DNA of 64,000 nucleotides from Balaenoptera acutorostrata (lineage: Eukaryota > Chordata > Mammalia > Artiodactyla > Balaenopteridae). Below are positions 19,544 through 48,515 of this stretch, piece after piece (the first letter of the stretch is position 1; each line of letters opens with the position of its first letter). Under the pieces are notes generated by a model. It was not told the DNA's origin. It ran no database searches and worked only from the letters and a program-made list of their open reading frames with translations. Where the stretch lies: contig NC_080082.1 in NCBI RefSeq assembly GCF_949987535.1, positions 49,204,374 through 49,268,373 on the forward strand, read 5' to 3'. The translations under genes and the position numbers were made by a program.

Positions 19544-20714
19544 TTTTTTCCACACACACACACTGTATTTTATTTTTACAAGAGATAGATAGACTGACAC
19601 CAAGCATTGTACATGGATGACCACAACAAAAGCAACAATGATTGCAATTACCAAACATGAAACACACTTATACTATGTCATAACATTGACATTCAGTCCA
19701 GTAATCCTCCACTGTAACAGCTCCTTTACTTTGCAGTGAAAATTGATTTGTATATTCTTTTCCTCTGAGTCCTTGTGGGATTTTTTTTTTTTTTAATTCA
19801 GACAGAAAGTCACAAAAATTATACTCATCCTCATCAGTTCACTCAGTCCCATGTAATTAATTTCTTTTTTTTCATCTTGATCTTTTGTTAGCACTTTTAT
19901 GAGTTCATCAGTTTTTCATTAGAGTTCTGAAAATGCTTATTCATTCAGTTCAGCAGTACAGTCAGTTACCAGAAACCTGTACTTGTCAGAGTCTTTTCCA
20001 TGAATTTCTTGAAGATGAAACTCTTTTATAGGAACATATTTGCAAAATCATCAGAGTACACCCAGAACTGTCTGTAAATGACAAAAGACTTAAAAATGAC
20101 CATGGTTAAAGATTTGATGAAAGTTCATAATAATGCAGTTGACAAGAAAATTAGTTATTTCTGAGATATACATTTTAAAGTAATAACTAGGATTATTACT
20201 TATAACATTATACCAGAACATATAAGATTTTTAGACGTTTCCTGTAATGTCTGAAACATTTATATTAACATATTTCCATACATATTTCCATACAAATACA
20301 AATATAAGATTTTTAGGAATTTCATGTAATGTCTGAAACATTTATATTAACATATTTCCATACATATTTCCATACAAATACAAATATAAGATTTTTAGAA
20401 ATTTCATGTAATGTCTGAAACATTTATATTAACATATTTCCATACATATTTCCATACAAATACAAATATAAGATTTTTAGAAATTTCATGTAATGTCTGA
20501 AACATTTATATTAACATATTTCCATACATATTTCCATACAAATACAAATATAAGATTTTTAGAAATTTCATGTACTGTCTGAAACATTTATATTAACATA
20601 TTTCCATACATATTTCCATACAAATACAAATATAAGATTTTTAGAAATTTCATGTAATGTCTGAAACATTTATATTAACATATTTCCATACAAATAACCC
20701 AATGAAAGTTTAGT
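19544..20714 (-). other. 3'-transduced sequence carried by the younger L1
   Basis: Non-L1 sequence lying between the L1 3' end (about 20,715-20,740) and a terminal inverted poly(A) at 19,539-19,549, inside the same target-site duplications. On the minus strand it ends with AATAAA (19,569-19,574) followed by a GT-rich stretch and the poly(A), as expected when L1 transcription reads into flanking DNA and uses a downstream poly(A) signal. The distal 650 bp look like ordinary 3'UTR-like sequence. The proximal part is an 82-bp tandem repeat. The source locus is not identified. Confidence 0.88.
20220..20697. repeat. 82-bp tandem repeat, about 6 copies
   Basis: The anchor GT(A)ATGTCTGAAAC or its variant recurs at 20,244, 20,326, 20,408, 20,490, 20,572 and 20,654, a constant spacing of 82. 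Each unit contains a shorter internal duplication (CATATTTCCATA). The outermost unit at 20,220 is the most diverged and the unit at 20,572 has one distinguishing change. There are no unique spacers. Confidence 0.97.
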
Positions 20715-20926
20715 ATTAGTTGTTTTGTTTGTTTTTTTATACTGCAGGTTCTTATTAGGCATCAGTTTTATACACATCCGTGTATACATGTCAATCCCAA
20801 TCGCCCAATTCAGCACATCACCATCCCCACCTCATCGCAGTTTTCCCCCCTTGGTGTCCATATGTCCATTCTCTACATCTGTGTCTCAACTTCTGCCCTG
20901 CAAACTGGCTCATCTGTACCGTTTTT

Positions 20927-23900
20927 CTACGTTCCACATACATGCATTAACATACGATATTTGTTTTTCTCTTTCTGACTTACTTCACTCTGTATGACAG
21001 TCTCTAGATCCATCCACTTCTCAACAAATGACTCAATTTCGTTCCTTTTTATGGCTGAATAATATTCCATCGTATATATGTACCACAACTTCTTTATCCA
21101 TTCGTCTGTTGATGGGCATTTAGGTTGCTTCCATGACCTGGCTATTGTAAATAGTGCTGCAATGAACATTCGGGTGCACGTGTCTTTTTGAATTACGGTT
21201 TTCTCTGGGTATGTGCCCAGTAGTGGGATTGCTGGGTCATATGGTAATTCTATTTTTAGTTTTTTAAGGAACCTCCATATTGTTCTCCATAGTGGCTGTA
21301 TCAATTTACATTCCCACCAACAGTGCAAGAGGGTTCCCTTTTCTCCACACCCTCTCCAGCATTTGTTGTTTGTAGATTTTCTGATGATGCCCATTCTAAC
21401 AGGAGTGAGGTGATACCTCATTGTAGTTTTGATTTGCATTTCTCTAATAATTAGTGATGTTGAGCATCTTTTCATGTGCTTCGTGGCCGTCTGTATGTCT
21501 TCTTTGGAGAAATGTCTATTTAGGTCTTCTGCCCATTTTTGGATTGGGGTGTTTGTTTCTTTGATATTGAGCTGAATGAGCTGTTTATATATTTTGGAGA
21601 TTAATCCTTTGTCCGTTGATTCATTTGCAAATATTTTCTCCCATTCTGAGGGTTGTCTTTTGGTCTTGTTTATGGTTTCCTTTGCTGTGCAAAAGCTTTG
21701 AAGTTTCATTAGGTCCCACTTGTTTATTTTTGTTTTTATTTCCATTACTCTAGGAGGTGGATCGAAAAAGATCTTGCTGTGATTTATGTCAAAGAGTGTT
21801 CTTCCTATGTTTTCCTCTAAGAGTTTTATAGTGTCCAGTCTTATATTTAGGTCTCTAATCCATTTTGAGTTTATTTTTGTGTATGGTGTTAGGGAGTATT
21901 CTAATTTCATTCTTTTACATGTGGCTGTCCAGTTTTCCCAGCACCACTTATTGAAGAGACTGTCTTTTCTCCATTGTATATCTTTGCCTCCTTTGTCATA
22001 GATTAGTTGACCATAGGTGCGTGGGTTAATCTCTGGGCTTTCTATCTTGTTCCATTGATCTATGTTTCTGTTTTTGTGCCAGTACCATATTGTCTTGATT
22101 ACTGTAGCTTTGTAGTATAGTCTGAAGTCAGGGAGTCTGATTCCTCCAGCTCCATTTTTTTGCCTCAAGACTGCTTTGGCTATTCGGGGTCTTTTGTGTC
22201 TCCATACAAATTTTAAGATGATTTGTTCTAGCTCCGTAAAAAATGCCCTTGGTAATTTGATAGGGATTGCATTGAATCTGTAGATTGCTTTGGGTAGTAT
22301 ACTCATTTTCACAATGTTGATTCTTCCAATCCAAGAACATGGTATATCTCTCCATCTGTTGGTATCATCTTTAATTTCTTTCATCAGTGTCTTATAGTTT
22401 TCTGCATACAGGTCTTTTGTCTCCCTAGGTAGGTTTATTCCTAGGTATTTTATTCTTTTTGTTGCAATGGTAAATGGGAGTGTTTCCATAATTTCTCTTT
22501 CAGATTTTTCATCATTAGTGTATAGGAATGCAAGAGATTTCTGTGCATTAATTTTGTAACCTGCAACTTTACCATATTCATTAATTAGCTCTAGCAGTTT
22601 TCTGGTGGCAGTTTTAGGATTCTCTATGTATAGTATCATGTCATCCGCAAACAGTGACAGTTTTACTTCTTCTTTTCCAATTTGTATTCCTTTTATTTCT
22701 TTTTCTTCTCTGATTGCCGTGGCTAGGACTTCCAGAACTATGTTGAATAATAGTGGTGAGAGTGGACATCCTTGTCTCGTTCCTGATCTTAGAGGAAATG
22801 CTTTCAGTTTTTCACCATTGAGAATGATGTTTGCTGTGGGTTTGTCATATATGGCCTTTATTATGTTGAGGTAGGTTCCCTCTATGCCCACTTTCTGGAG
22901 AGTTTTTATCATAAATGGGTGTTGAATTTTGTCAAAAGCTTTTTCTGCATCTATTGAGATGATCATATGGTTTTTATTCTTCAATTTGTTAATATGGTGT
23001 ATCACATTGATTGATTTGCGTATATTGAAGAATCCTTGCATCCCTGGGATAAATCCCACTTGATCGTGGTGTATGATCCTTTTAATGTGTTGTTGGATTC
23101 TGTTTGCTAGTATTTTGTTGAGGATTTTTGCATCTATATTCATCAGTGATATTGGTCTGTAATTTTCTTTTTTTGTAGTGTCTTTGTCTGGTTTTGGTAT
23201 CAGGGTGATGGTGGCCTCATAGAATGAGTTTGGGAGAGTTCCTTCCTCTGCAATTTTTTGGAAGAGTTTGAGAAGGATGGGTGTTAGCTCTTCTCTAAAT
23301 GTTTGATAGAATTCACCTGTGAAGCCATCTGGTCCTGGACTTTTGTTTGTTGGAAGATTTTTAATCACAGTTTCAATTTCATTACTTGTGATTGGTCTGT
23401 TGATATTTTCTGTTTCTTCCTGGTTCAGTCTTGGAAGGTTATACCTTTCTAAGAATTTGTCCATTTCTTCCAGGTTGTCCATTTTATTGGCATAAAGTTG
23501 CTTGTAGTAGTCTCTTAGGATGTTTTGTATTTCTGCGGTGTCTGTTGTAACTTCTCCTTTTTCATTTCTGATTTTATTGATTTGAGTCCTCTCCCTCTTT
23601 TTCTTGATGAGTCTGGCTAATGGCTTATCAATTTTGTTTATCTTCTCAAAGAACCAACTTTTAGTTTTATTGATCTTTGCTATTGTTTTCTTTGTTTCTA
23701 TTTCATTTATTTCTGCTCTGATCTTTATGATTTCTTTCCTTCTGCTAACTTTGGGTTTTGTTTGTTCTTCTTTCTCTAGTTTCTTTAGGTGTAAAGTTAG
23801 ATTGTTTACTTGAGATTTTTCTTGTTTCTTTAGGTAGGCTTGTATAGCTATAAACTTCCCTCTTAGAACCGCTTTTGCTGCATCCCATAGGTTTTGGGTC

Positions 23901-24745
23901 GTCGTGTTTTCATTGTCATTTGTCTCTAGGTATTTTTTTATTTCCTGTTTGATTTCTTCAGTGATCTCTTGGTTATTTAGTAACGTATTGTTTAGCCTCC
24001 ATGTGTTTGTCTTTTTTACGTTTTTTTCCCTGTAATTCATTTCTAATCTCATAGCGTTGTGGTCAGAAAAGATGCTTGATATGATTTCAATTTTCTTAAA
24101 TTTACTGAGGCTTGATTTGTGACCCAAGATGTGATCTATCCTGGAGAATGTTCCGTGTGCACTTGAGAAGAACGTGTAATCTGCCGTTTTTGGATGGAAT
24201 GTCCTATATATATCAATTAAATCTATCTGGTCTATTGTGTCATTTAAAGCTTCTGTTTCCTTATTTATTTTCATTTTGGATGATCTGTCCATTGGTGTAA
24301 GTGAGGTGTTAAAGTCCCCCACTATTATTGTGTTACTGTCGATTTCCTCTTTTATAGCTGTTAGCAGTTGCCTTATGTATTGAGGTGCTCCTATGTTGGG
24401 TGCATATATATTTATAATTGTTATATCTTCTTCTTGGATTGATCCCTGGATCATTATGTAGTGTCCTTCCTTGTCTCTTGTAACATTCTTTATTTTAAAG
24501 TCTATTTTATCTGATATGAGTATAGCTACTCCAGCTTTCTTTTGATTTCCATTTGCATGGAATATCTTTTTCCATCCCCTCACTTTCAGTCTGTATGTGT
24601 CCCTAGGTCTGAAGTGGGTCTCTTGTAGACAGCATATATATGGGTCTTGTTTTTGTATCCATTCAGCCAGTCTATGTCTTTTGGTTGGGGCATTTAATCC
24701 ATTCACGTTTAAGGTAATTATCGATATGTATGTTCCTATGACCAT
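20927..24745 (-). CDS. L1 ORF2 protein: endonuclease / reverse transcriptase
   Basis: An open frame of 1,272 codons, about the usual length of mammalian L1 ORF2p (1,275 aa in human). ORF2p nicks genomic DNA and reverse-transcribes L1 RNA at the nick. The N-terminal APE-like endonuclease (about 1-235) keeps the catalytic set: N13, E42 in LQETHF, D144 and N146 in GDFN, D204, D228 and H229 in SDH. The reverse-transcriptase core has the FADD box near residue 700, and [12 protein letters not shown] lies upstream of it. The C-terminal Cys/His segment has spacing CX3CX7HX4C (CWRGC...H...C). It starts 58 bp after ORF1 stops, the standard bicistronic L1 arrangement. No frame defect is visible; activity is untested. 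Confidence 0.96.
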
Positions 24746-24803
24746 TTTCTTAATTGTTTTGGGTTTGTTTTTGTAGGTCCTTTTCTTCTCTTGTGTTTCC
24801 CAC

Positions 24804-25709
24804 TTAGAGAAGTTCCTTTAGCATTTGTTGTAGAGCTGGTTTGGTGGTGCTGAATTCTCTTAGCTTTTGCTTGTCTGTAAAGCTTTTGATTTCTCCATCA
24901 AATCTAAATGAGATCCTTGCTGGGTAGAGTAATCTTGGTTGTAGGTTCTTCCCTTTCATCACTTTAAGTATTTCATGCCACTCCCTTCTGGCTTGCAGAG
25001 TTTCTGCTGAGAAATCAGCTGTTAACCTTATGGGGGTTCCCTTGTATGTTATCTGTCGTTTTTCCCTTGCTGCTTTCAATAATTTTCCTTTGTCTTTAAT
25101 TTTTGCCACTTTGATTACTATGTGTCTCGGCGTGTTTCTCCTTGGGTTTATTCTGTATGGGACTCTCTGCGCTTCCTGGACTTGGGTGGCTATTTCCTTT
25201 CCCATGTTAGGGAAGTTTTCGATTATAATCTCTTCAAATATTTTCTCTGGTCCTTTCTCTCTCTCTTCTCCTTCTGGGACCCCTATAATGCGAATGTTGT
25301 TGCGTTTAATGTTGTCCCAGAGGTCTCTTAGGCTGTCTTCATTTCTTTTTATTCTTTTTTCTTTAGTCTGTTCCGCAGCAGTGAATTCCACCATTCTGTC
25401 TTCCAGGTCACTTATCCGTTCTTCTGCCTCAGTTATTCTGCTATTGATTCCTTCTAGTGTAGTTTTCATTTCAGTTATTGTATTGGTCATCTCTGTTTGT
25501 TTGTTCTTTAATTCTTCTAGGTCTTTGTTAATCATTTCTTGCATCTTCTCAATCTTTGCCTCCATTCTTATTCCGAGGTCCTGGATCATCTTCACTATCA
25601 TTATTCTGAATTCTTTTTCTGGAAGGTTGCCTATCTCCACTTCATTTAGTTGTTTTTCTGGGGTTTTTTCTTGTTCCTTCATCTGGTACATAGCCCTCTG
25701 CCTTTTCAT
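24804..25709 (-). CDS. L1 ORF1 protein: RNA-binding chaperone
   Basis: An open frame of 301 codons. ORF1p trimerises, coats L1 RNA and is needed in cis for retrotransposition. The first third is charged and heptad-like ([19 protein letters not shown] and following), consistent with the coiled coil. The middle RRM-like part includes REKG before the conserved [15 protein letters not shown] segment. The C-terminal domain carries [11 protein letters not shown] and [14 protein letters not shown]. It is somewhat shorter than human ORF1p (338 aa), mainly in the variable N-terminal half. The truncated relative at 26,653-26,940 starts at the same Met ([13 protein letters not shown]), which supports the start. 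Confidence 0.95.
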
Positions 25710-26680
25710 CTTCTCTGTCTTTCTGTAACTGTGGTTTTTGGTCCACAGGCTGCAGGATTGTAGTTTTTCTTGCTTCTGTTGTCTGCCCTCTGATGGTTGA
25801 GGCTATCTAAGAGGCTTGATGGGAGGCTCTGGTGGTGGGTAGAGATGACTGTTGCTGTGGCGGTCAGAGCTCAGTAAAACCTTAATCCACTTGACTGTTG
25901 ATGGGTGGGGCTGGGTTCCCTCCCTGTTGCTGTGGCGATCAGAGCCCAGTAAAACCTTAATCCACTTGACTGTTGATGGGTGGGGCTGGGTTCCCTCCCT
26001 GTTGGTTGTTTTGCCTGAGGCAACCCAACACTGGAGCCTACCCGTGCTCTTTGGTGGGGTTAATGGCAGACTCTGGGAGGGCTCACGCCAAGGAGAACTT
26101 CCCAGGACCTCTGCTGCCAGTGTCCTTATCCCCACGGTGAAACAGAGCCACCACTCGCCTCTGCAGGAGACCCCCCAACACCAGCAGGTACGTCTGGTTC
26201 AGTCTCCCCCAGGGTCACTGCTCCTTCCCCTGGGTCCCGATGCACACATTACTTTGTGTGTGCCCTCCAAGAGTGGGGTCTCTGTTTCCCCCAGTCCTGT
26301 CACAGTCCTGCAATCAATTCCCACTAGACTTCAAAGTCTGATTCTCTAGGAATTCCTCCTCCCTTTGCCGGACCCCCAGGTTGGGAAGCCTGAGGTGGGG
26401 CTCAGAACCTTCACTCCAGTGGGTGGACTTCTGTGGTATAAGTGTTCGCCAGTCTGTGAGTCACCCACCCAGCAGTTATGGGATTTGATTTTACTCTGAT
26501 TGCGCCCCTCCTACCGTCTCACTGTGGCTTCTCCTCTGTCCTTGGACGTGGGGTGTCCTCCTTGGTGAAGTCCAGGGTCTTCCTGTCAATGATTGTCCAG
26601 CAGCCAGTTGTGATTCTGGTGCTCTCGCAAGAGGGAGTGAGAGCACGTCCTTCTACTCCGCCATCTTGGTTAATCTCCCC
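25710..26680 (-). promoter_or_regulatory. L1 5'UTR with a 75-bp tandem duplication
   Basis: This is the L1 internal promoter region. On the minus strand it starts near 26,680 with AACCAAGATGGCGGAG, matching the YY1-type motif at L1 5' ends. A 75-bp unit is duplicated at about 25,851-26,000 (second copy from 25,926) with two or three differences. The older L1 5'UTR at 27,080-27,180 has it once. Confidence 0.85.
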
Positions 26681-26697
26681 CCTTCTAGTGTATTTTT
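26681..26697. repeat. Right target-site duplication of the younger L1
   Basis: CCTTCTAGTGTATTTTT, identical to 19,527-19,543. Confidence 0.93.
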
Positions 26698-27865
26698 CAT
26701 TTCAGTTATTGTATTGTTCATCTCTGTTTGTTTGTTCTTTAATTCTTGTAGGTCTTTGTTAAACATTTCTTGCATCTTCTCGATCTTTGCCTCCATTCTC
26801 TTTCCGAGGTCCTGGATCATCTTCACTATCATTATTCTGAATTCTTTTTCTGGAAGGTTGCCTATCTCCACTTCATTTAGTTGTTTTTCTGGGGTTTTAT
26901 CTTGTTCCTTCATCTGGTACATAGCCCTCTGCCTTTTCATCTTGTCTGTCTTTCTGTGAATGTTGTTTTTGCCCCACAGACTGCAAAATTGTAGTTCTTC
27001 TTGCTTCTGCTGCCTGCCCTCTAGTGGATGAGGCTATCTAAGAGGCTTGTGCAAGTTTCCTGATGGGAGGGACTGGTGGTGGGTAGAGCTGGGTGTTGCT
27101 CTGGTGGGCAGAGCTCAGTAAAACTTTAATCTGCTTGTCTGCTGATGGGTGGGGCTGGGTTCCCTCCCTGTTGGTTGTTTGGCCTGAGGTGACCCAACAC
27201 TGGAGCCTACTCGGGCTCTTTGTTGGGGCTAATGGTGGACTCTGGGAGGGCTTACACCAAGGAGTACTTCCCAGAACTTCTGCTGCCAGTGTCCTTGTCC
27301 TCATGGTGAGCCACAACCACCCCCCGCCTCTGCAGGACACCCTCCAACACTAGCAGGAAGGTCTGGTTCGGTCTCCTATGGGGTCACTGCCCCTTCCCCC
27401 TGGGTGCCGATGCATACACTACTTTGTGTGTGCCCTCCAAGAGTGGAGTCTCTGTTTCCCCCAGTCCTGTCGAATTCCTGCAATCAAATCCCGCTAGCCT
27501 TCAAAGTCTGATTCTCTAGGAATTCCTCCTCCTGTTGCTGGACCCCCAGGTTGGGAAGCCTGACGTGGGGCTCAGAACCTTCACTTCAGTGGGTGGACTT
27601 CTGTGGTATAAGTGGTATAAGTGTTCTCCAGTTTGTTTTCTCCAGTTTGTGAGTCACCCACCCAGCAGTTATGGGTTTTGATTTTATTGTGATTGTGCCC
27701 CTCCTACCATCTCATTGTGGATTCTCCTTTGTCTTTGGATGTGGGGTATCTTTTCCGGTGAGTTCCAGTGTCTTCCTGTTGATGATTGTTCAGCAGTTAG
27801 TTGTGATTTTGGTGCTCTCGCAAGAGGGAGTGAGAGCACGTCCTTCTACTCCGCCATCTTGAACC
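26698..27865 (-). mobile_element. Older L1, 5' part: ORF1 N-terminus and 5'UTR
   Basis: Continuation of the older L1 after the insertion. The ORF1 start codon is at 26,940 (minus), and its frame runs into the insertion point. The 5'UTR extends to about 27,865, where 'ccgccatcttgaacc' is the inverted CAAGATGGCGG 5' end. It is diverged from the younger copy throughout. Confidence 0.93.
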
Positions 27866-28385: not shown

Positions 28386-28391
28386 TTTATT
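28386..28391 (-). terminator. Poly(A) signal of the SCGB1B-like gene
   Basis: AATAAA on the minus strand, about 100 bases after the stop codon at 28,493. This gives a compact 3'UTR, typical of secretoglobin genes. Confidence 0.8.
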
Positions 28392-28492
28392 GCTGGAATC
28401 CTCTAATCAGACACCTGGACATGGCAGGCTGCTGACACGACTTAGTGATCAGGCAAGTGGCTTCCTTGGGGTTCCTGGCAGGGACAGCTCCA

Positions 28493-29857
28493 TCAACACA
28501 AAGGACTTGAGTATATTTTATCCTGCAAAGAGAAGGTCAGGAAACCTGGTGAGGCCTCTGGGGTCCCGGAGACATCAAGCTGCACTGAACACTGGGGAGA
28601 GGCCTGCAGGCTTGTTTGGAGGGTAGCCTCTGGATCTGAGCAGGTAAAGGTGGATTCCTCCCAATGAAGCTTCCTCCAGTGGAACAGAGAAGAGGGGTCT
28701 CTCTGGTGGGTTGAGGGCAGTCTGGGATAGAGTGGGGGAGGCTGCTGAGGACCACCTGGCAGGGCTCCACAGTGGCCCCTGGGAGTCTCCAGGGATGAGC
28801 TGACCCCCATCTGTTTCCCCCCTCTGCCCCTCTGCCCCTTGGACACTTGCAGCTGAAGCAGTGGCTTGTTCCCACCACCTCTTGGGGCGGCAGAGAGAGG
28901 ATTCACTCTGGTCCTCCACTCTGGGCATCCCAGGCCTGGGGAAGGCAGGAGTGGAGCTTTTGGACTCAGCCTCCTCTTATGGCATTTGAGGCACAGAATG
29001 GCCCTTTGGGGTGCAGGGAACAAGGGCAATGTGGGTTTTAGGTGGGGTGGAGCAGGGGACTTGAGGCACTAAGGGAAAGGAACGGACGTTTGGAGAAGGC
29101 AAGGACTCAGTGTTAATGGTTTGCAGAAGATGCAGGTCATGGGCTGGAGAGGCTGCCATCAGGGAGGCCAGTGCTGAGGGCCTGACACCGAAGCCAGGTG
29201 GTGCCACAGAGACAGCAAGGCCTAGCCAGGCCCAGCTCAGGAGCTCCAGGGCTGGACTGAGTCTTCCTACCCGAGCCTCTCCCATGCTGTGCGTGTCCGC
29301 CGCATCCTCTCTACCTCCTCATTCATGAGGCTCTTTCTCCTCCCAGGTTCCCAGGGAAGGGCCCTGGTGGAGAGGAAATGAGCTCCCCCACCTCGCACTG
29401 CCCTGAGCAGACCCCCCTCACCCGCCCCAAGACAGGCGCCAGAGGCACAGACACGCACAGCCGGACCCACCAGAACACCGAGAGTGTTTTGCCTACCCTC
29501 ATCTGTCAACTTCCGGTCAGCGCAGCTCTTCAGTTGACTGGCAGTGTCCAGTACCAAAGGGTCTGTTTCATACTGTCTCATATTTGCCATATAGTCCTCA
29601 GGGGTTCCCGCCACGAACAGGCTAAGAGTCTCCCTCAAGGCCGGGCAAATGTCGCAATCTGAAACACAAAGATAAGGTGACCCTCCCTGGAAAGGCACCC
29701 ATCAGAGCACACTCTTCCCTTCCCCCTCCCGACATGCTCAGTGCTGCCCTGGGAAGGTGTCAGAACCCTTGGGGAACCCGTGTCCCAGCCACTCACTTCC
29801 GCCCAAGATCGGGAGCAAGGCAGTGCAGAGCAGCGGGAGAGCTCCAGCCCGCATCAT
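28493..29857 (-). CDS. Secretoglobin, SCGB1B / androgen-binding-protein alpha-like (Fel d 1 chain 1 homologue), three exons
   Basis: Three minus-strand exons join cleanly. Exon 1 is 29,857-29,797 (signal peptide MMRAGALPLLCTALLPILGG, donor GTGAGT). Exon 2 is 29,658-29,471 (188 bp, the usual secretoglobin size; acceptor TTTCAG, donor GTGGGT). Exon 3 is 28,522-28,493 (DKIYSSPLC, stop). The total is 279 nt and 92 aa. The mature start NCDICPAL, the central LKSCADRKLTDE and the final SPLC match the Fel d 1 chain 1 / ABP-alpha pattern, including the three cysteines used for disulfides. Members are small secreted helical proteins that pair with an SCGB2B chain and bind hydrophobic ligands. A second Met follows the first. 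The gene lies head-to-head with a broken SCGB2B-like gene 4.8 kb away. Splice sites and reading frame are intact; expression is unknown. The orthologue name is not certain. Confidence 0.9.
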
Positions 29858-29896
29858 GGGGTGGGTGGCAGGTGATCCCTACCCACCTGGACCCCC

Positions 29897-29902
29897 TTTA
29901 TA
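29897..29902 (-). promoter_or_regulatory. TATA box of the SCGB1B-like gene
   Basis: Minus-strand TATAAA in GGTATAAAGG, 40 bases upstream of the first ATG. This leaves a very short 5'UTR, as is usual for secretoglobins. Confidence 0.75.
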
Positions 29903-30524
29903 CCTGCCCTGGGCCCCACGCCTGTCTGACACTTCTTTTTCCAGGAGGTACTGCCAGGCGTCTCCCAGGCCACAGCTTGGAGTTGCCTGGGGCTGCACAG
30001 GGAGGGGCTGTGTGTGCCGGCAAGATGCTGGTCCTTCGGTCCACAGAGCGCCCTGGCTCAGCCTCCCTCCCATCTGGAGGCTCTGTGGGAGGGTCAGCTG
30101 ACACGGGAAGCTGAACAACTGAAAATCCCCAGGTTGACCAGAAAAGGGGCAGAAATGGTCCCAAATCAGGCCTCCTGAATGATGGCCCATGGCAGCCTGT
30201 CACAACTGCATGTGACTTTGAAAACAGTCTGGTCTTGATGTTATGGGTTTTTCAGGAAGCTCAGCGCTTACAAATGGTCTCAAAGGTAGTAAGTGCCAGG
30301 AAGGCCAGGGCACAAGTCCTGAACCCTTGGTCAGGCTCTCCGGTGGCTCCTTCCCTGCCCTGCTTTCATCACAGTGTCCTTGATCTTGTCAGTGGCCTCT
30401 GTTGAGCCACTCCCCCGAATTTGTTTCTGGAGCCCCGAAACCTCCCCTACATGATGGCCCAGAAGTTCTAGTTTTCTTGTTGATCAGTTGATCAAGTCCT
30501 GCCACCTGGTGACTTTGACAGTGT

Positions 30525-31130
30525 TACCAAACTCAGGCCTGGCTGCTCACCGCTTGAAAGCCAATACTCGAGAGGTTGGAAAGGAAAGTTTGCTTTATTC
30601 CAGAGGCCAGCAATCAGGGGAGAGGACGGATTCCTGCCCAAAGGCCAACTCCTAACTGCCGATCAAGGCGCAAGAGCTTTTAAGTGGGGTTTAAGGGGTG
30701 TATAGGCGAGGGAGGGGGCAGAGTAGCACAGTCAGGTCTGACAGTCATCTTGAAATTGGCAACGCGGTGGTCTGATCACCATCATCTTGATTGTTTTAAG
30801 TACAGTTAATCTTCAGTTCCAGGATCAGTTTGTTCCCATTTCCTTGAGGCCTGTTCTCAGAATTGTGTGAAATGGGGCGGCTTATGTCATGGCTACCATC
30901 TGGTCATCATGTACTCATCTTCCTCCACCTGGTGGGGCTTTAGTATCTGCAGAACAGCTCAAAGGATATGGTTCTGAATATTACCTATAGCCCCTGAGGA
31001 GTAACTTGAGGACTAGACTTTGTTTAATGACTAAACGATTATTTTGTCTTGTGTAGAGGCTTAGAGTTTAAAGTATAACTAAGTTCTAAGGCCATGGGGG
31101 TGGTTACAACAGCACCTCAATCTACACAGG
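30525..31130 (-). mobile_element. Retroviral-type solo LTR (probable)
   Basis: Sits in the intergenic space of the secretoglobin pair. On the minus strand there is an AATAAA (30,594-30,599) about 70 bases from one end, a GC-rich proximal part and an AT-rich U3-like part, and it may begin TG and end CA. No internal retroviral genes are seen. The family is not identified. Confidence 0.5.
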
Positions 31131-31249
31131 AATATTTTCCCCAACCTGCTTCTTCTCTTGAGTGTCTCTGTACTGTTCCCCCCATCACCTCTCCAGAGCT
31201 CTGACTTCAGGAAAAGCCAAGCCCCTTCTAGGCCCACAGTCCCCGGGCC

Positions 31250-32030
31250 ATTCGCACAACCAGTCCCGCACCCCTGCTGCCTCTGTGAACTTATCCCTGC
31301 CTTTCTTTCCTCCCTCAGTGACCTCCTTTCTGCTTCTTAACCAGCCCGAGTATGCTCCTGTAGCAGGGGTTTTGCATGTGCTGCCCTCCCTGCCTGGAAT
31401 GCTCTTCCTCCCAGTGGCTGCATGCTTCGTTGCCTCATTTCTCAGGTCTGTTCAAATATCACACGTCAGAGAAATTTCTCCATACTCTTTTTTTTTAAAA
31501 TACGTTTATTTATTTATTTTTGGTTGCGTTGGGTCTTTGTTGCTGTGCGCGGGCCTTCTCTAGTTGAGGTGAGCGGGGGCTACTCTTCGTTGCGGAGCAC
31601 GGGCTCTAGGCAAGCAGGCTCAGTAGTTGTGGCTCGCGGGCTCTAGAGCACAGGCTCAGTAGTTGTGGTGCATGGGCTTAGTTGCTCCATGGCATGTAGG
31701 ATCTTCCCAGACCAGAGCTCAAACCCATGTCCCCTGCATTGGCAGGTGGATTCTTAACCACTGCGCCACCAGGGAAGTCCTCCCCATACTCTTGACCCCT
31801 TACATCAAAGGCGCTGGCCCCCTCCTTCCCCCCATGGCACTCTCTTTTTTCCCCCTGCTTCATCTTCCTCCATAGCACTTCTTGCCATTGGTTGATTGTC
31901 TTTCACTCCCTCTTAGATGCATAAAGAGCTGCAGGAGAGCGAGAGCTTTGCTGTGTGTGCTGCTGCATCCCCAGGACTAGGACAGGGCCCAACACTCAGT
32001 GGGTGTTACACAATGTTTGTTAGAATAATG
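31250..32030 (+). mobile_element. L2 LINE 3' remnant split by a SINE
   Basis: 'gcctggaatgctcttcctccca', 'tctgttcaaatatcac', then 'ggttgattgtctttcactccctc' and 'cccaggactaggacagggcccaac' follow the order of the L2 3' end in sense orientation. A CHR SINE interrupts it at 31,490. Confidence 0.7.
31490..31783 (-). mobile_element. CHR-type SINE inside L2
   Basis: Inverted copy with (TTTA)n tail and 'gcgccaccagggaagtcc' end. Target-site duplication CCATACTCTT at 31,480-31,489 and 31,784-31,793. Confidence 0.95.
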
Positions 32031-32829
32031 GAAGGAATATTCCATTTCTCTGGAGTTGATAAACAAGAATATTTTTACTTCTATTTGCCGTAGATGTGCT
32101 TATGAATATTGCCTGGGATTAATTAAATTAGGTGAAGGTTTAAAATATTTTGATAAGTCAGAATTAAGTAACTTTTTGTTGGAGGCCCCTGGCTGGCCTT
32201 TTCTCTGAGTCACCTTTGGCAGAATAAGGTTTGCTGAAGCCCAGATTTGAAGTTGGGACACAAGTTGTGTGACCACAATCAGAACCTTATGCCAGATAGG
32301 ATTCATATCTGGTAACTGCTCTTGGCAAGGAGGCACCAAGTATTGAGCTCCAGCTGTCAGCTGGTCTCCATGGAGTCCTCCCTTGCCATGGCTACTGATG
32401 CCTGGGGGCCATACCTCTGAAGGTCACCCCATGAGGGGCTCAGGTGGCTGCAGATGTACCTCAGAGTTCCTGGGCAGGAACGTGAACACCATATGGCCCA
32501 GGCTGCACGTGCTTGCCCTTTGTCTGTGTGGGACAGGACTTCAGTGTGGTGGGACACCTGGGCACGGGTCACAAGCCTCCTGTCCTTCAGAAGACACTGC
32601 CCTCCATCCCCTCCCCAGCTCTGTGAGATGAGGAAGCCAGTAGCTTGGAGTGCTGAAGTAACACAGGTCGCTGCTATGGATCCAGCCCAGTGCCCTTCCG
32701 AGGATGCCACAAGACCATCTGAGACGTCCCTGGATGGTGGGGACATTTGGTGAGGTCAGGGCAAAGTGCTGAACAAGGTCAAGAGAGGAGTTGCAGCAGA
32801 TGTAGCCCTTTCCTAATGCAAGTTTTTTT

Positions 32830-33620
32830 AAAATAAAATTTTAATTTGGGATAATTTTAGACTTATAGAAAAGTTGCAAAGATTTATTGAAACTGAGAAT
32901 CAACATTGGAACATTACTGATAACTAAACCCTACTCTTTATTTGGATGTCACTAGGTTGTCCACTAATGTCCTCTTTGGGTTCCAGGATCCAATATACAA
33001 CCTATACACACTGCATTCATTGTCTTGTCTCCCCAGTCTTCTCTGCTCTGTGGAGTGACTCATTCTTTCCTTGTCTGTCATGGCCTTGGCAGTGTTGAGG
33101 AGGACTGGCCAAGTATTGTAGAATGATCCCCAAGCTGAGTTTGTCTGCTGTTGTTCTCATAATGTAGACTGGGGTACAGACTTTGGGTTTTGAGAACATC
33201 ACAGAGGTGAAGTGCCCTTCCCATCACCTTACATCAGGGTATATATGGCAGCAGTATGTCTTACCACTGGGTATATCAGCCTTGATTACTTGACTAATGT
33301 TGTGTTTGCCATGTTTCTGCACTGTTTTCCCCTTCCCCTGCTGTTTTCTTTGGAAATGAGTTACTAAGTCTAGCCCACTCTCAGGGAGGTCAGGGCAGTA
33401 AGTTCCCCCTCCTGGAGGGGATAATCTACATATATGATTCGGGATGTTTCTGTAGGGAATGTTTGTCTCTTCTCCCCCATTTATTTATTTAATCATTTAT
33501 TTATATCAGTATGGACTCACACATATTACTTTATACTTTAGGTTATCATCTAATATTCTGTTATTTATTTTGTTGGTCAAACTGTTTCCAATTTGGACAT
33601 TGGAAGCTTTCTCAGGCTTT
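32830..33620 (-). mobile_element. Old LINE-type repeat, family not resolved
   Basis: 'ataattttagacttatagaaaagttgcaaag', 'ggttccaggatccaatata' and 'catttatttatttaatcatttatttatatcag' form a recurrent mammalian interspersed pattern, and a piece of the same family lies at about 12,380-12,470. Long and non-coding. Orientation is by analogy with an old L1 3' end and is uncertain. Confidence 0.5.
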
Positions 33621-33709
33621 CTTCTGCTAGAGTTTTCAAGGACCATCTCATCTTGTTTGCACCAACAAACTGCTTTCCTAGAGTGGAAAGTTGAACTTGA
33701 CTCTTGAGA

Positions 33710-34600
33710 GAGTTTTCAGCACGTGGAGGGGCACCTCTGGTGGACCCAGCACTCTGGGCCTTAGGACTCCCATCCACAGTGGCCTGTAAGGCTGTGGGCC
33801 TCAGAGTCTCTGATGCAGGAGTCAAACCCCACAAACCCACAGCTGTTTACTGATGCTTCTGGATAGGCTATGCAGTCCAAGCACCTCTTGGGACCAGGTG
33901 CACTGATGGAGGAGGGCGAGACAGCCAGGAGAGGGGGCAAGGCTGGAGCCACTGGGAGTCAAGAGCGTGCCCAGGAACTTGCTCCCTTAAGGGTCTGAGA
34001 AAAGCTGGCAGCACGATCAAAAATGACAGACCTACCGGCCCCTAAGAAAACCCACGTGGCCACAAGTCCTGTGAATTCCCTGGTAGGGAGTGATTCAGAG
34101 CCCAAGGCTGGTGTCCGCCAGTCCTCGGGGCCCAGTCCAGAGACTGCAGCAGTTAAGATATTTAGGGGGCTTTGGTAAGGTCCAGCTCCTCATTCTTATC
34201 TCCAGGACTTAACCTTGGGGAAAAGGTAAGGATGCTGGATGACTCCCTGTAGTGGTGTAGACCTGTCCTTGACCCTCCCGTGCTTTCCTCTCCGCAGTTC
34301 GGGAGAGTACTGCCTTTGGAGCCCGGATAGGCTGGGGGGAAGGATGACCAGGAAAACAGGTGATGGCTGGGGCTGGGACAACAGAGCATTTGGCTCAGAA
34401 TGGAGTCCCTTAGAAATGTCAGCTCCAGCTGTTCTTTGGCAAAGATACCACCACGTCTTCTCCAGGAGCTCTGCTCTCAGAGTAGGAAGGGCTTCCCACA
34501 CTAAACACCCGCAAGGGCTGAGGGATCCATCTGCGCCAGGTGCCTGCCCTCAGGCCTGTGGAGCTCCCTGGAGGGGTGTGGGCTGGGCTCAGGGAGCTAG
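33710..34600. other. Unique sequence upstream of the SCGB2B-like gene
   Basis: No gene or repeat recognised. It is the 5' flank of the plus-strand secretoglobin. Confidence 0.5.
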
Positions 34601-34605
34601 TGGTT

Positions 34606-34611
34606 TATAAA
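34606..34611 (+). promoter_or_regulatory. TATA box of the SCGB2B-like gene
   Basis: TATAAA in TTTATAAAGC, 51 bases before the ATG. It mirrors the TATA box of the partner gene. Confidence 0.75.
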
Positions 34612-34656
34612 GCAGCAGAAACCCTGCCCTGAGCAGAGCATCCCAGCGCTGACACG

Positions 34657-36721
34657 ATGAAGGGAACACTGCTTGTGCTGGCCTTGCTGGTGACCAGAGA
34701 GCTGACCTTTGAGACGGGTGAAGGTAGGAAGGAGGGTACAGATGGTCTTCCTGACCCTTGCCCCATGCCATCTCACTGCATCCTTCCATAGTCATCTCCA
34801 GGCAGCTTCTAGGGACAGATTTAGAGGGCAGCTGGCAGATCAATGCCCAGGAGTCCTGCAGAAACCACCTGAGGCTTTCAGTCTTTGAATGCAGGGGGAG
34901 GTCATTAGCTGTGCACACTGTGAGGGATAGTTAGTTGGGGGTAGTGGTGCTTATTGGAAGGGAAGAAGCAGGCAGGCTGGTATGCCTGGGGGCAGTGGTC
35001 AAGGGCAGAGGGGTCTCCAGTCCTAGCCCCTCTAGCTGCTCCCTTCTGCTGGGAGTGCCTCATAGAGAATGTTTTCTGTCTGGGATATAACAGTCCTGGG
35101 AGAGGGTGGATCTCAGTGGGAGATGAGTCTGGAAGCATTGGATATGTGAGTTACTATCAAGTGGTGGGGAAACGGGAACCTCCTACCCCGGTCATTCCTT
35201 TGATGAAGTGTTTTCTGTCTGTGCTTTCAGTGGAAGCTTGCCCTATATTTTACGGAGTGGTTAGCACTGTGGTCCTCGGAAAGCAGGACACTGTTGGACC
35301 TAGCCCTCGAAACAGTCGGCACTACTGAACGGGAAAAAGCAGCCATAGAAAAAAATCCAGGATTGCTACAATGAGTTGGGATTTCTGGACAAGCTCAAGC
35401 CTCTGAAACTCATGGTAATTTACTCTCCCCATCCGCCACCCTGACAACCACATGCAGCATATTGCAATATGCCACGTGGTAATAGACCGTGCAGTCATGG
35501 GTTATGTGAGAGACAAGAGGTATAAACAATGAAACGCATAAACCTTTGCTCCACCCTACGGCACATATGATATGCAACCACAGGCCACCTGCACACCCAG
35601 CCTCTTCTGCTACCGAATATGTCCATAGCATGCCAATTAGCTCCCACACAGCAGTGGACTAATATCAATGCAACACACCAAGTGTGTTGACTCGTGATTT
35701 TTTTCTTGGTGAGGGGAATTAGCGTTGGAGGAGCAGAATTTTAATCTTTGTCAGGAAAGGAAGAATTCAGCTCACACGCACTAGGAGTCCTGTCAGAGCT
35801 CTTTTAGGAATATTGAAAATGACCCCCTGCCTTTAGACTCTTTTCCCAGGAAAGGACTCCCTTGGCTTTGTAAGGTTTCTGGCTTGTGGCCACTTCACTT
35901 CCTCTTGTGCCCACTTTGATGTCTATTCCTCTGGCTCAGAGCCCCACTTCCACTGACATTGTCTCAGTGCCTACAGGCCAGAATTCCACTCAGGTGTTTT
36001 GGGGCCTGAGGCTCCTGAGGCAGCTTCTAGCTTCATGCAGCTGCTCAGCTGCGCTAGTAATGTATCTCCTGAGGAAAGATCTTTCTTTCGTTGTTGTTCT
36101 TGTCATACCTCATACTACCAGATAGGTAGTCTGTCTTTTACCCTGTTTTCCTCAAAGTGTTGATACTGCATAGCGAGACGTTTTCCCATAAAGCAGAGTT
36201 TCTTGCACTAATATAAGCACACAGGGCACATGGGGTTGTTTACAACACCTGCATGCACCTGCATGACAGAAGGGGCTCAGGTGCAGGAGATGTGGCACAA
36301 ACCCAGCCTCCGCTACCTTGCTCCTCCCTCAGGACCAGCCCCTGCTACGCCCTGCAGAACCCTTGTCCTCTCCTCCCCTCCCTGGCATGGCTCGTTGCTC
36401 CGTCTCCATCCTGACACCTGTGCACAGGCGATTAGGGAGCCATCCTCCCCCTGGCCTGCCTGATGGCAGCCCCCTCTCCACTGGTGGGTCTGTGGGCCAG
36501 AGGTTCTTGCTGGGGATGCAGCTGAATCACTGAGGGTGAGGTGTGACGTGATCCTGGGGAGACAGGGTCTCCCTGCTGTGGGCTCAGGTCCTGTCCCTCC
36601 TCATCCTACTCCCTCCCAGGGTTCCATCCTCCTCAGCGACGAATGTGTTAACTATACAGTGTCCACGGCGATGGATGATATTCTAGGAGACATGTGTAAA
36701 CTGCTCCCTTTGGGGAGATAA
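34657..36721 (+). pseudogene. Secretoglobin, SCGB2B / ABP beta-gamma-like (Fel d 1 chain 2 homologue), frameshifted
   Basis: Three plus-strand exons. Exon 1 is 34,657-34,723 (signal peptide beginning MKGTLLVLALLVTRE, donor GTAGGA). Exon 2 is 35,231-35,414 (acceptor TTTCAG, donor GTAATT). Exon 3 is 36,620-36,721 (acceptor CTCCCAG, ends LLPLGR and TAA). Exon 2 opens with EACPIFYGV, matching the chain 2 pattern of CPIFY. Family-like sequence then continues in a second frame from about 35,279 (ESRTLLDLALETVG) and in a third from about 35,355 (IQDCYNELGFLDKL). That implies two net +1 shifts, one near 35,276 and one in a run of seven A at 35,349-35,355. As read, translation stops at 35,326. Splice sites, TATA box and exon 3 look preserved, so inactivation may be recent. 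Assembly or read error must be excluded. Confidence 0.88.
35415..36619. other. Intron 2 of the SCGB2B-like pseudogene
   Basis: No repeat or second gene recognised within the intron. Confidence 0.6.
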
Positions 36722-36929
36722 TCTTTGTGAGTGATGCCTGGTCTACGCTTGGTCTTCCTGCCCTGTTCTCCTTATCAGCTGCAGCTAGAATCCAACACCT
36801 GTCCCCACCTGACTCCGATAAAATAACTGCCGCTTCGCTCAGTGTGCCCATCGTCTGCGTGCTGTGTGGGGAGGATGTGAGGCCCAGCAGGAGATCTTGG
36901 GAGATGGTGAGAAGTGACACATGTGGTCA

Positions 36930-47173: not shown

Positions 47174-47662
<489 letters not shown>

Positions 47663-48515
47663 TAAGTGCAGGGAATGTGGGAAAACCTACAGCAGAAGCA
47701 CCCACCTTGTTTGGCATAAAAAAACACTGGAGAAAGGCCTTATGAATGCAGCAAATGTGGGAAAGGCTATAGCAGCAAACACACACTTGTTCAACACCAG
47801 AGACTATACACTGGAGAATGGCCTTATGAATGCAGTGAATGTGGGACATTCTTTAGCCACAAGTCCAGCCTCATTAAACATCAGAGAAGTCACATTGTAG
47901 AAAAGCCTTAAGCTAATGGCCTTTCCTCATTTGTTACCAGAAAGTTCAAACTGGAGAAAGGCCTCTGCAGTGCAGGGTGTTTGCTCTCTCCTTGGTCAAC
48001 GGGAATGACACCAGGGAGAAGTTCTGAGAGTAGTCTTTATAAAGTAGCCATCAACCGAAAGTTGTATCTCATACATCTGAACATCCACAGTGGGGAGATT
48101 TCGTATGAGTGCCGGTTATGTGGGAAGCTCTCAGGACCTGTATTGCAGTTTGGCCTGCTCAAGGCCCTTGCCTGAGTTAAATCACTGCCAGTACCTGTGG
48201 CAGAAGCCATCTCGCCTCTGCCTGCTGGCTAATGTGCATCAGGTTACCCAGTGTGCCCAGGGAAGGCAGACCTCTGTACACCCCCCCTTCCCTGGAGGAA
48301 ATCATGAGTGGTCTAAGGCCATTGGAGGCATAATTACATTCACACACTGGGTGTGATTAGAGTTGGGGGGAGCGAGCTAAAGAGGATGTACCCCATCTGT
48401 AGTGCTTCCAGAAATATTCTGCTCACTAAAGCTGTGAGGGATGAGCATGTATAGATATTCTCAGGACTTCTAGATTTACATTTCTTCTATGGACAAGGTC
48501 ACTGGCAGAGCAAAT

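Follow-up and report, generated by a model that had tools for sequence, protein, structure and literature searches.

A head-to-head Fel d 1/ABP-type secretoglobin gene pair with one open and one broken partner in the whale Balaenoptera acutorostrata

We analyzed a stretch of 64,000 nucleotides (the window) from contig NC_080082.1 of Balaenoptera acutorostrata, of which positions 28386 to 36822 hold one divergent (5'-5') pair of secretoglobin genes. The alpha gene (SCGB1B/Abpa) runs from 29857 to 28493 on the minus strand, and the beta-gamma gene (SCGB2B/Abpbg) runs from 34657 to 36721 on the plus strand; their ATGs are 4.8 kb apart, with an intergenic region of about 4.7 kb. The alpha gene has three exons and an open coding sequence of 279 bp for 92 amino acids. 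In the beta-gamma gene, the TATA box, leader, splice sites, and exon 3 are preserved, while the frame of exon 2 is broken twice. The features of the pair are as follows.

29902-29897, minus strand: alpha TATAAA box (exact match); the first ATG follows about 40 bp downstream
29857-29797, minus strand: alpha exon 1, with start codons and signal peptide; donor AA/GTGAGT
29658-29471, minus strand: alpha exon 2 with its most likely end, 188 bp; donor CTG/GTGGGT; a lower-scoring alternative donor, AGG/GTAGGC, would end the exon at 29497
28522-28493, minus strand: alpha exon 3, DKIYSSPLC and then a stop
28391-28386, minus strand: alpha poly(A) signal AATAAA (sequence match)
34606-34611, plus strand: beta-gamma TATAAA box (sequence match)
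34657-34723, plus strand: beta-gamma exon 1, leader; donor AAG/GTAGGA; 87% match to sheep protein P0007 over its first 23 residues
35231-35414, plus strand: beta-gamma exon 2, 184 bp, with two frame changes
35280-35282, plus strand: A-run with the first frameshift (protein alignment, profile search)
35326-35328, plus strand: first in-frame stop after the frameshift, the end of the open reading frame (ORF) 34954..35328, 86 nucleotides (nt) before the exon 2/3 junction
35349-35355, plus strand: A7 run with the second frameshift (protein alignment, profile search)
36620-36721, plus strand: beta-gamma exon 3, with an open frame up to its terminal stop
36817-36822, plus strand: GATAAA, a variant poly(A) signal of beta-gamma (sequence match)

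The only plus-strand AATAAA between 28000 and 37000 lies at 32832, upstream of the beta-gamma gene. The alpha protein matched the Pfam family Uteroglobin with an E value of 1.8e-21 (76.8 bits; curated cut-off, 24.8); in the PDB, it matched Fel d 1 chain 1 with an E value of 2.1e-20. In the alignment, its cysteines C25, C66, and C92 stand at the places of those of Fel d 1 chain 1; by analogy with Fel d 1, its leader is presumably cleaved after C22. An earlier note on this DNA had called the alpha gene complete, and the signal peptide, the three cysteines, the splice sites, the TATAAA box, and the AATAAA signal were indeed found on the minus strand.

The end of alpha exon 2 is most likely 29471. 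With a rough matrix, the donor there scored 7.63 bits and the one at 29497 scored 6.18 bits, and the stretch between the two donor sites is present in all 12 noncetacean rows of the alpha alignment. The ORFs P0053 and P0054, which differ little from horse P0040, continue past the exon end equivalent to 29471. If the exon ended at 29497, exon 3 would run straight into a stop (LTDEG-stop); an end at 29498 would keep the frame, but it lacks a GT donor and would cost 9 residues.

For the beta-gamma gene, 11 of 32 protein matches were taken into the alignment. Compared with the sheep, musk deer, rhino, and pilot-whale proteins, both frame changes in exon 2 are consistent with a one-base excess, which bears out the two frameshifts claimed earlier. 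With the stop at 35326-35328, the pair does not have both subunits in open frames. When the beta pieces were searched apart against Feld-I_B, one reached 33.4 bits (cut-off, 24.1) and two stayed below, at 16.2 and 12.2 bits; read with X at both breaks, beta matched Fel d 1 chain 2 with an E value of 5.6e-11. The description of the locus as a Fel d 1/ABP-type head-to-head pair, one gene open and the other broken, holds, and both genes match well beyond chance. As a control for assembly errors, the ORFs of a neighboring L1 element (24804-25709 and 20927-24745; 4,725 bp, with 238 A-runs of at least 3 bases and nine of at least 6) contained no frameshift; at the 95% upper error rate from this control, which is biased since the element was chosen because its ORFs are open, two errors within the 184 bp of beta exon 2 have a P of 0.006. 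The beta-gamma gene is likely a unitary pseudogene.

The closest relatives of alpha, P0001 to P0003, come from three Balaenoptera species, which together with the pilot-whale relative of beta marks the host as a cetacean. All three rorqual models break off exon 2 at the earlier site: P0001 and P0002 end in LTDEG and LTEEG, and P0003 likewise exits there. Among the 32 beta matches, the sole cetacean protein is that of the pilot whale (Globicephala; P0006), which is labeled LOW QUALITY PROTEIN and contains no X. Its end, VIYSPHPPP, is what translation gives for the first part of the intron in the window, i.e., a read-through of the exon 2 donor. In NCBI practice, a low-quality model without X is one from which bases were removed, and this would fit extra bases in the pilot whale too.

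No second copy was seen in the window or its flanks. In the window, profiles built from 12 relatives of alpha and 13 of beta-gamma, together with tblastn, found no further copy better than an E value of 0.07; in 189 kb of flank (100 kb left and 89 kb right; 546 N), there was no profile match better than 0.33 and no tblastn match at an E value of ≤0.1. We also searched the whale's own assembly (2.77 Gb; 1,374 contigs). An alpha query of 82 amino acids found one place at an E value of ≤0.001 (5 candidates scored), and the Uteroglobin profile gave 5 matches at an E value of ≤1 (18 candidates scored), of which contig C15 holds four and C25 only this locus. A sheep beta query yielded a single weak match, exon 1 of this locus, with an E value of 0.12 (one candidate scored). 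The left flank has a LIM-domain exon about 29 kb from the window and the right flank has C2H2 zinc-finger ORFs (L026 and L028), which agree with the human order, WTIP - SCGB - ZNF.

Among the five Uteroglobin matches is the sole exon 2 of SCGB1A1 (uteroglobin/club-cell protein), which is interrupted by an in-frame TAG close to residue 50 of the mature sequence. It lies on the minus strand at L007:6519-6340, within G000:C15:9575336-9575551. Exon 1 of this gene is open (L007:8618-8568), and exon 3 was not found with a loose motif. By eye, the other three C15 matches look like SCGB1D, SCGB2A, and SCGB1C.

To judge constraint on alpha, we aligned the window protein with 13 of its 23 relatives, taking the 12 noncetacean rows as the reference; cetacean rows were compared with these 12, and every other row was compared with the remaining 11. 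Ten relatives (P0002, P0003, P0005, P0040, P0047, P0048, P0050, P0053, P0054, and P0055) were left out because their ends were ill predicted, they were unnamed, or they nearly duplicated others. Of the near-invariant positions, 8 of 32 are changed in the window protein and 7 of 26 in that of B. ricei, with six departures in common (P16, L28, T31, L32, T59, and G75). Apart from slow loris and mole-rat, the other alphas depart at 0 to 4 positions, e.g., 2 of 32 in deer, 0 of 32 in rhino, and 2 of 34 in zebra. Because departures are shared, these data point to an alteration of constraint that predates the split of the two whales. We further estimated how often the alpha frame, start and splice sites included, would survive neutrally: 0.65 to 0.74 at 1% divergence, 0.17 to 0.30 at 4%, and 0.01 to 0.04 at 10%, the ranges spanning two assumed indel ratios, and 0.21 at the rate implied by the two breaks in beta. 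Neutral survival of a 92-codon frame is therefore not rare, and an open alpha frame is weak evidence of function. Since the frame often survives neutrally and all three rorqual models exit exon 2 early, alpha may be decaying too. Judged from the alignments, alpha is most likely an orphan under relaxed constraint.

Overall, we think it likely that the locus represents, in cetaceans, the ancestral placental Abpa-Abpbg (Fel d 1-type) secretoglobin pair, with beta dead, the heterodimer lost, and alpha left as an orphan that drifts under relaxed constraint. With its stop 86 nt upstream of the exon 2/3 junction, a beta transcript would be expected to undergo nonsense-mediated decay, or else it would yield a stub of about 54 amino acids with one mature cysteine. 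In either case, the disulfide-linked alpha-beta heterodimer, a carrier of small hydrophobic ligands in other mammals, would not be made. The pair would have lost its use with the sebaceous glands of cetacean skin and the vomeronasal organ gone; beta would have been disabled first, leaving alpha as an orphan that drifts and, in this species, is unbroken so far. The gene loss in this cetacean is real but ordinary in kind; it looks like the usual decay of a gene pair for scent or skin secretion once whales had taken to the water. The coexistence of one open and one broken partner probably reflects chance and time.

Several points weigh against this interpretation. The order, beta and then alpha, is one that we infer. 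Alpha retains its open frame, three cysteines, and splice, TATA, and poly(A) signals, and it is 93% identical to the B. ricei protein over 75 residues. In slow loris, 8 of 35 such positions are changed, and in mole-rat, 7 of 36, as frequently as in the whale, so the departure count by itself is no proof of decay. Outside its breaks, beta has changed at 2 of 32 near-invariant positions, compared with 0 to 7 in the other rows; being so well kept, it need not have been lost long ago. The evidence that other cetaceans share these frameshifts is indirect, coming from the protein model of the pilot whale. The sheep beta query missed even the broken exon 2 of this locus, which leaves room for a diverged second copy. 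Finally, besides the bias of the L1 control, another L1 in the window, at 16.1 to 19.4 kb, is in pieces, through decay or error.

The open frame, the three mature cysteines, the signals, and the 93% identity with B. ricei where the two overlap would also fit a functional orphan, i.e., an alpha secreted in airway or mucosal fluid as a homodimer or paired with another secretoglobin. Possible partner genes do exist in the genome (L002 and L004), an example being the presumed SCGB2A-like gene on C15. We regard this alternative as unlikely, although it fares best among the rivals: a quarter of the near-invariant positions are changed, the frame would often survive neutrally at 4% divergence or at the beta rate, and the rorqual models cut exon 2 short. 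Those same models give rise to a second alternative, somewhat less likely again, in which both halves are dead and alpha, spliced at 29497, yields a product of about 75 amino acids without the last helix and the third cysteine. The window spliced there ends just as P0001 does; however, the distal donor scores higher, the noncetacean rows hold the stretch between the sites without exception, and the rorqual models may be prediction artifacts.

An intact pair whose beta frameshifts stem from assembly errors is improbable. Both breaks lie in A-runs, a common site of length errors, but the first run has just 3 bases, the biased L1 control showed no indel, and the pilot-whale beta model is of low quality as well. 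We give equally little credit to the proposal that the ABP/Fel d 1 heterodimer was lost in cetaceans, along with SCGB1A1 in at least this species, and that alpha was kept and took their place as a lone homodimeric secretoglobin of airway or mucosal fluid. Chance similarity for either gene is ruled out by the matches to Uteroglobin, Feld-I_B, and Fel d 1 chains 1 and 2.

Other observations concern the relatives and the surroundings of the pair. The first 14 residues of the B. physalus alpha model (P0003) come from window positions 36851-36786 on the minus strand, opposite the beta 3' end; they are probably a prediction artifact and possibly an upstream exon. The ENA protein P0005 matches window positions 29590-29270 (minus strand; alpha exon 2 and intron) at 106 of 107 residues and is whale DNA in another assembly, perhaps of the same or a sister species. 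When two contig collections (genome_contigs and viral_contigs) were checked for whale DNA as contamination, none of the 106 and 66 pattern matches was confirmed. The L1 at 20927-27861 (minus strand), whose 5' end lies about 0.5 kb past the alpha poly(A) signal, has both ORFs open: ORF2 encodes 1,272 amino acids with endonuclease and reverse transcriptase domains, and ORF1 encodes 301. Its 5' region is doubled (25450-26668 and 26681-27861, 85 to 95% alike in four blocks), and an 82-bp tandem repeat at 20138-20777, found as six overlapping 230-nt copies with a spacing of 82, adjoins its 3' end. A C2H2 zinc-finger reading frame lies inside the window at 47201-47665 (plus strand).

According to Laukaitis et al. 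(2008; PMC2291036), a single Abpa-Abpbg pair in the earliest placental expanded in cattle, rabbit, and mouse and was lost in primates; the same paper describes expression of the cat pair in salivary and sebaceous glands and skin expressed sequence tags of Abp genes in cattle, sheep, and goat. Two further sources report that most analyzed sebum genes were lost before living cetaceans diverged (PMC6526905) and that the inactivation of ancV1R falls on the stem cetacean branch, in agreement with TRPC2 (PMC7290294). The suggestion of relaxed selection in the earlier note fits these losses and the alpha departures. A link between the frameshifts and changed signaling is conjectural, as is a functional role for the orphan alpha. 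Five whale terms and Bos taurus gave no hit in PMC5957422. Among the literature matches listed for secretoglobins and ABP, which cover the field in part and leave novelty unproven, no title or abstract start concerned this whale locus. If true, our interpretation adds a sender-side gene to the losses already published for cetaceans, on the receiver side (vomeronasal) and on the gland side (sebum). It also raises the question of the fate of one subunit once the other subunit of the pair dies, and the locus merits a comparative check.

Like cat Fel d 1, the whale locus has chain-1-like and chain-2-like genes in one pair, with the chain 1 cysteine pattern; unlike in the cat, the chain 2 partner is out of frame, so that no heterodimer is expected. 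The head-to-head arrangement of alpha and beta-gamma genes is also that of the Abpa-Abpbg clusters of cattle and rabbit, for which that paper gives 18 and 43 homologues, respectively (PMC2291036), compared with the one half-broken pair found in the whale. The loss of Abp in human, chimpanzee, and bushbaby, set out in the same paper (PMC2291036), resembles the whale case in that an ancestral single pair was silenced by pseudogenization; it differs in that the lineage is another one and the whale alpha gene is still open.

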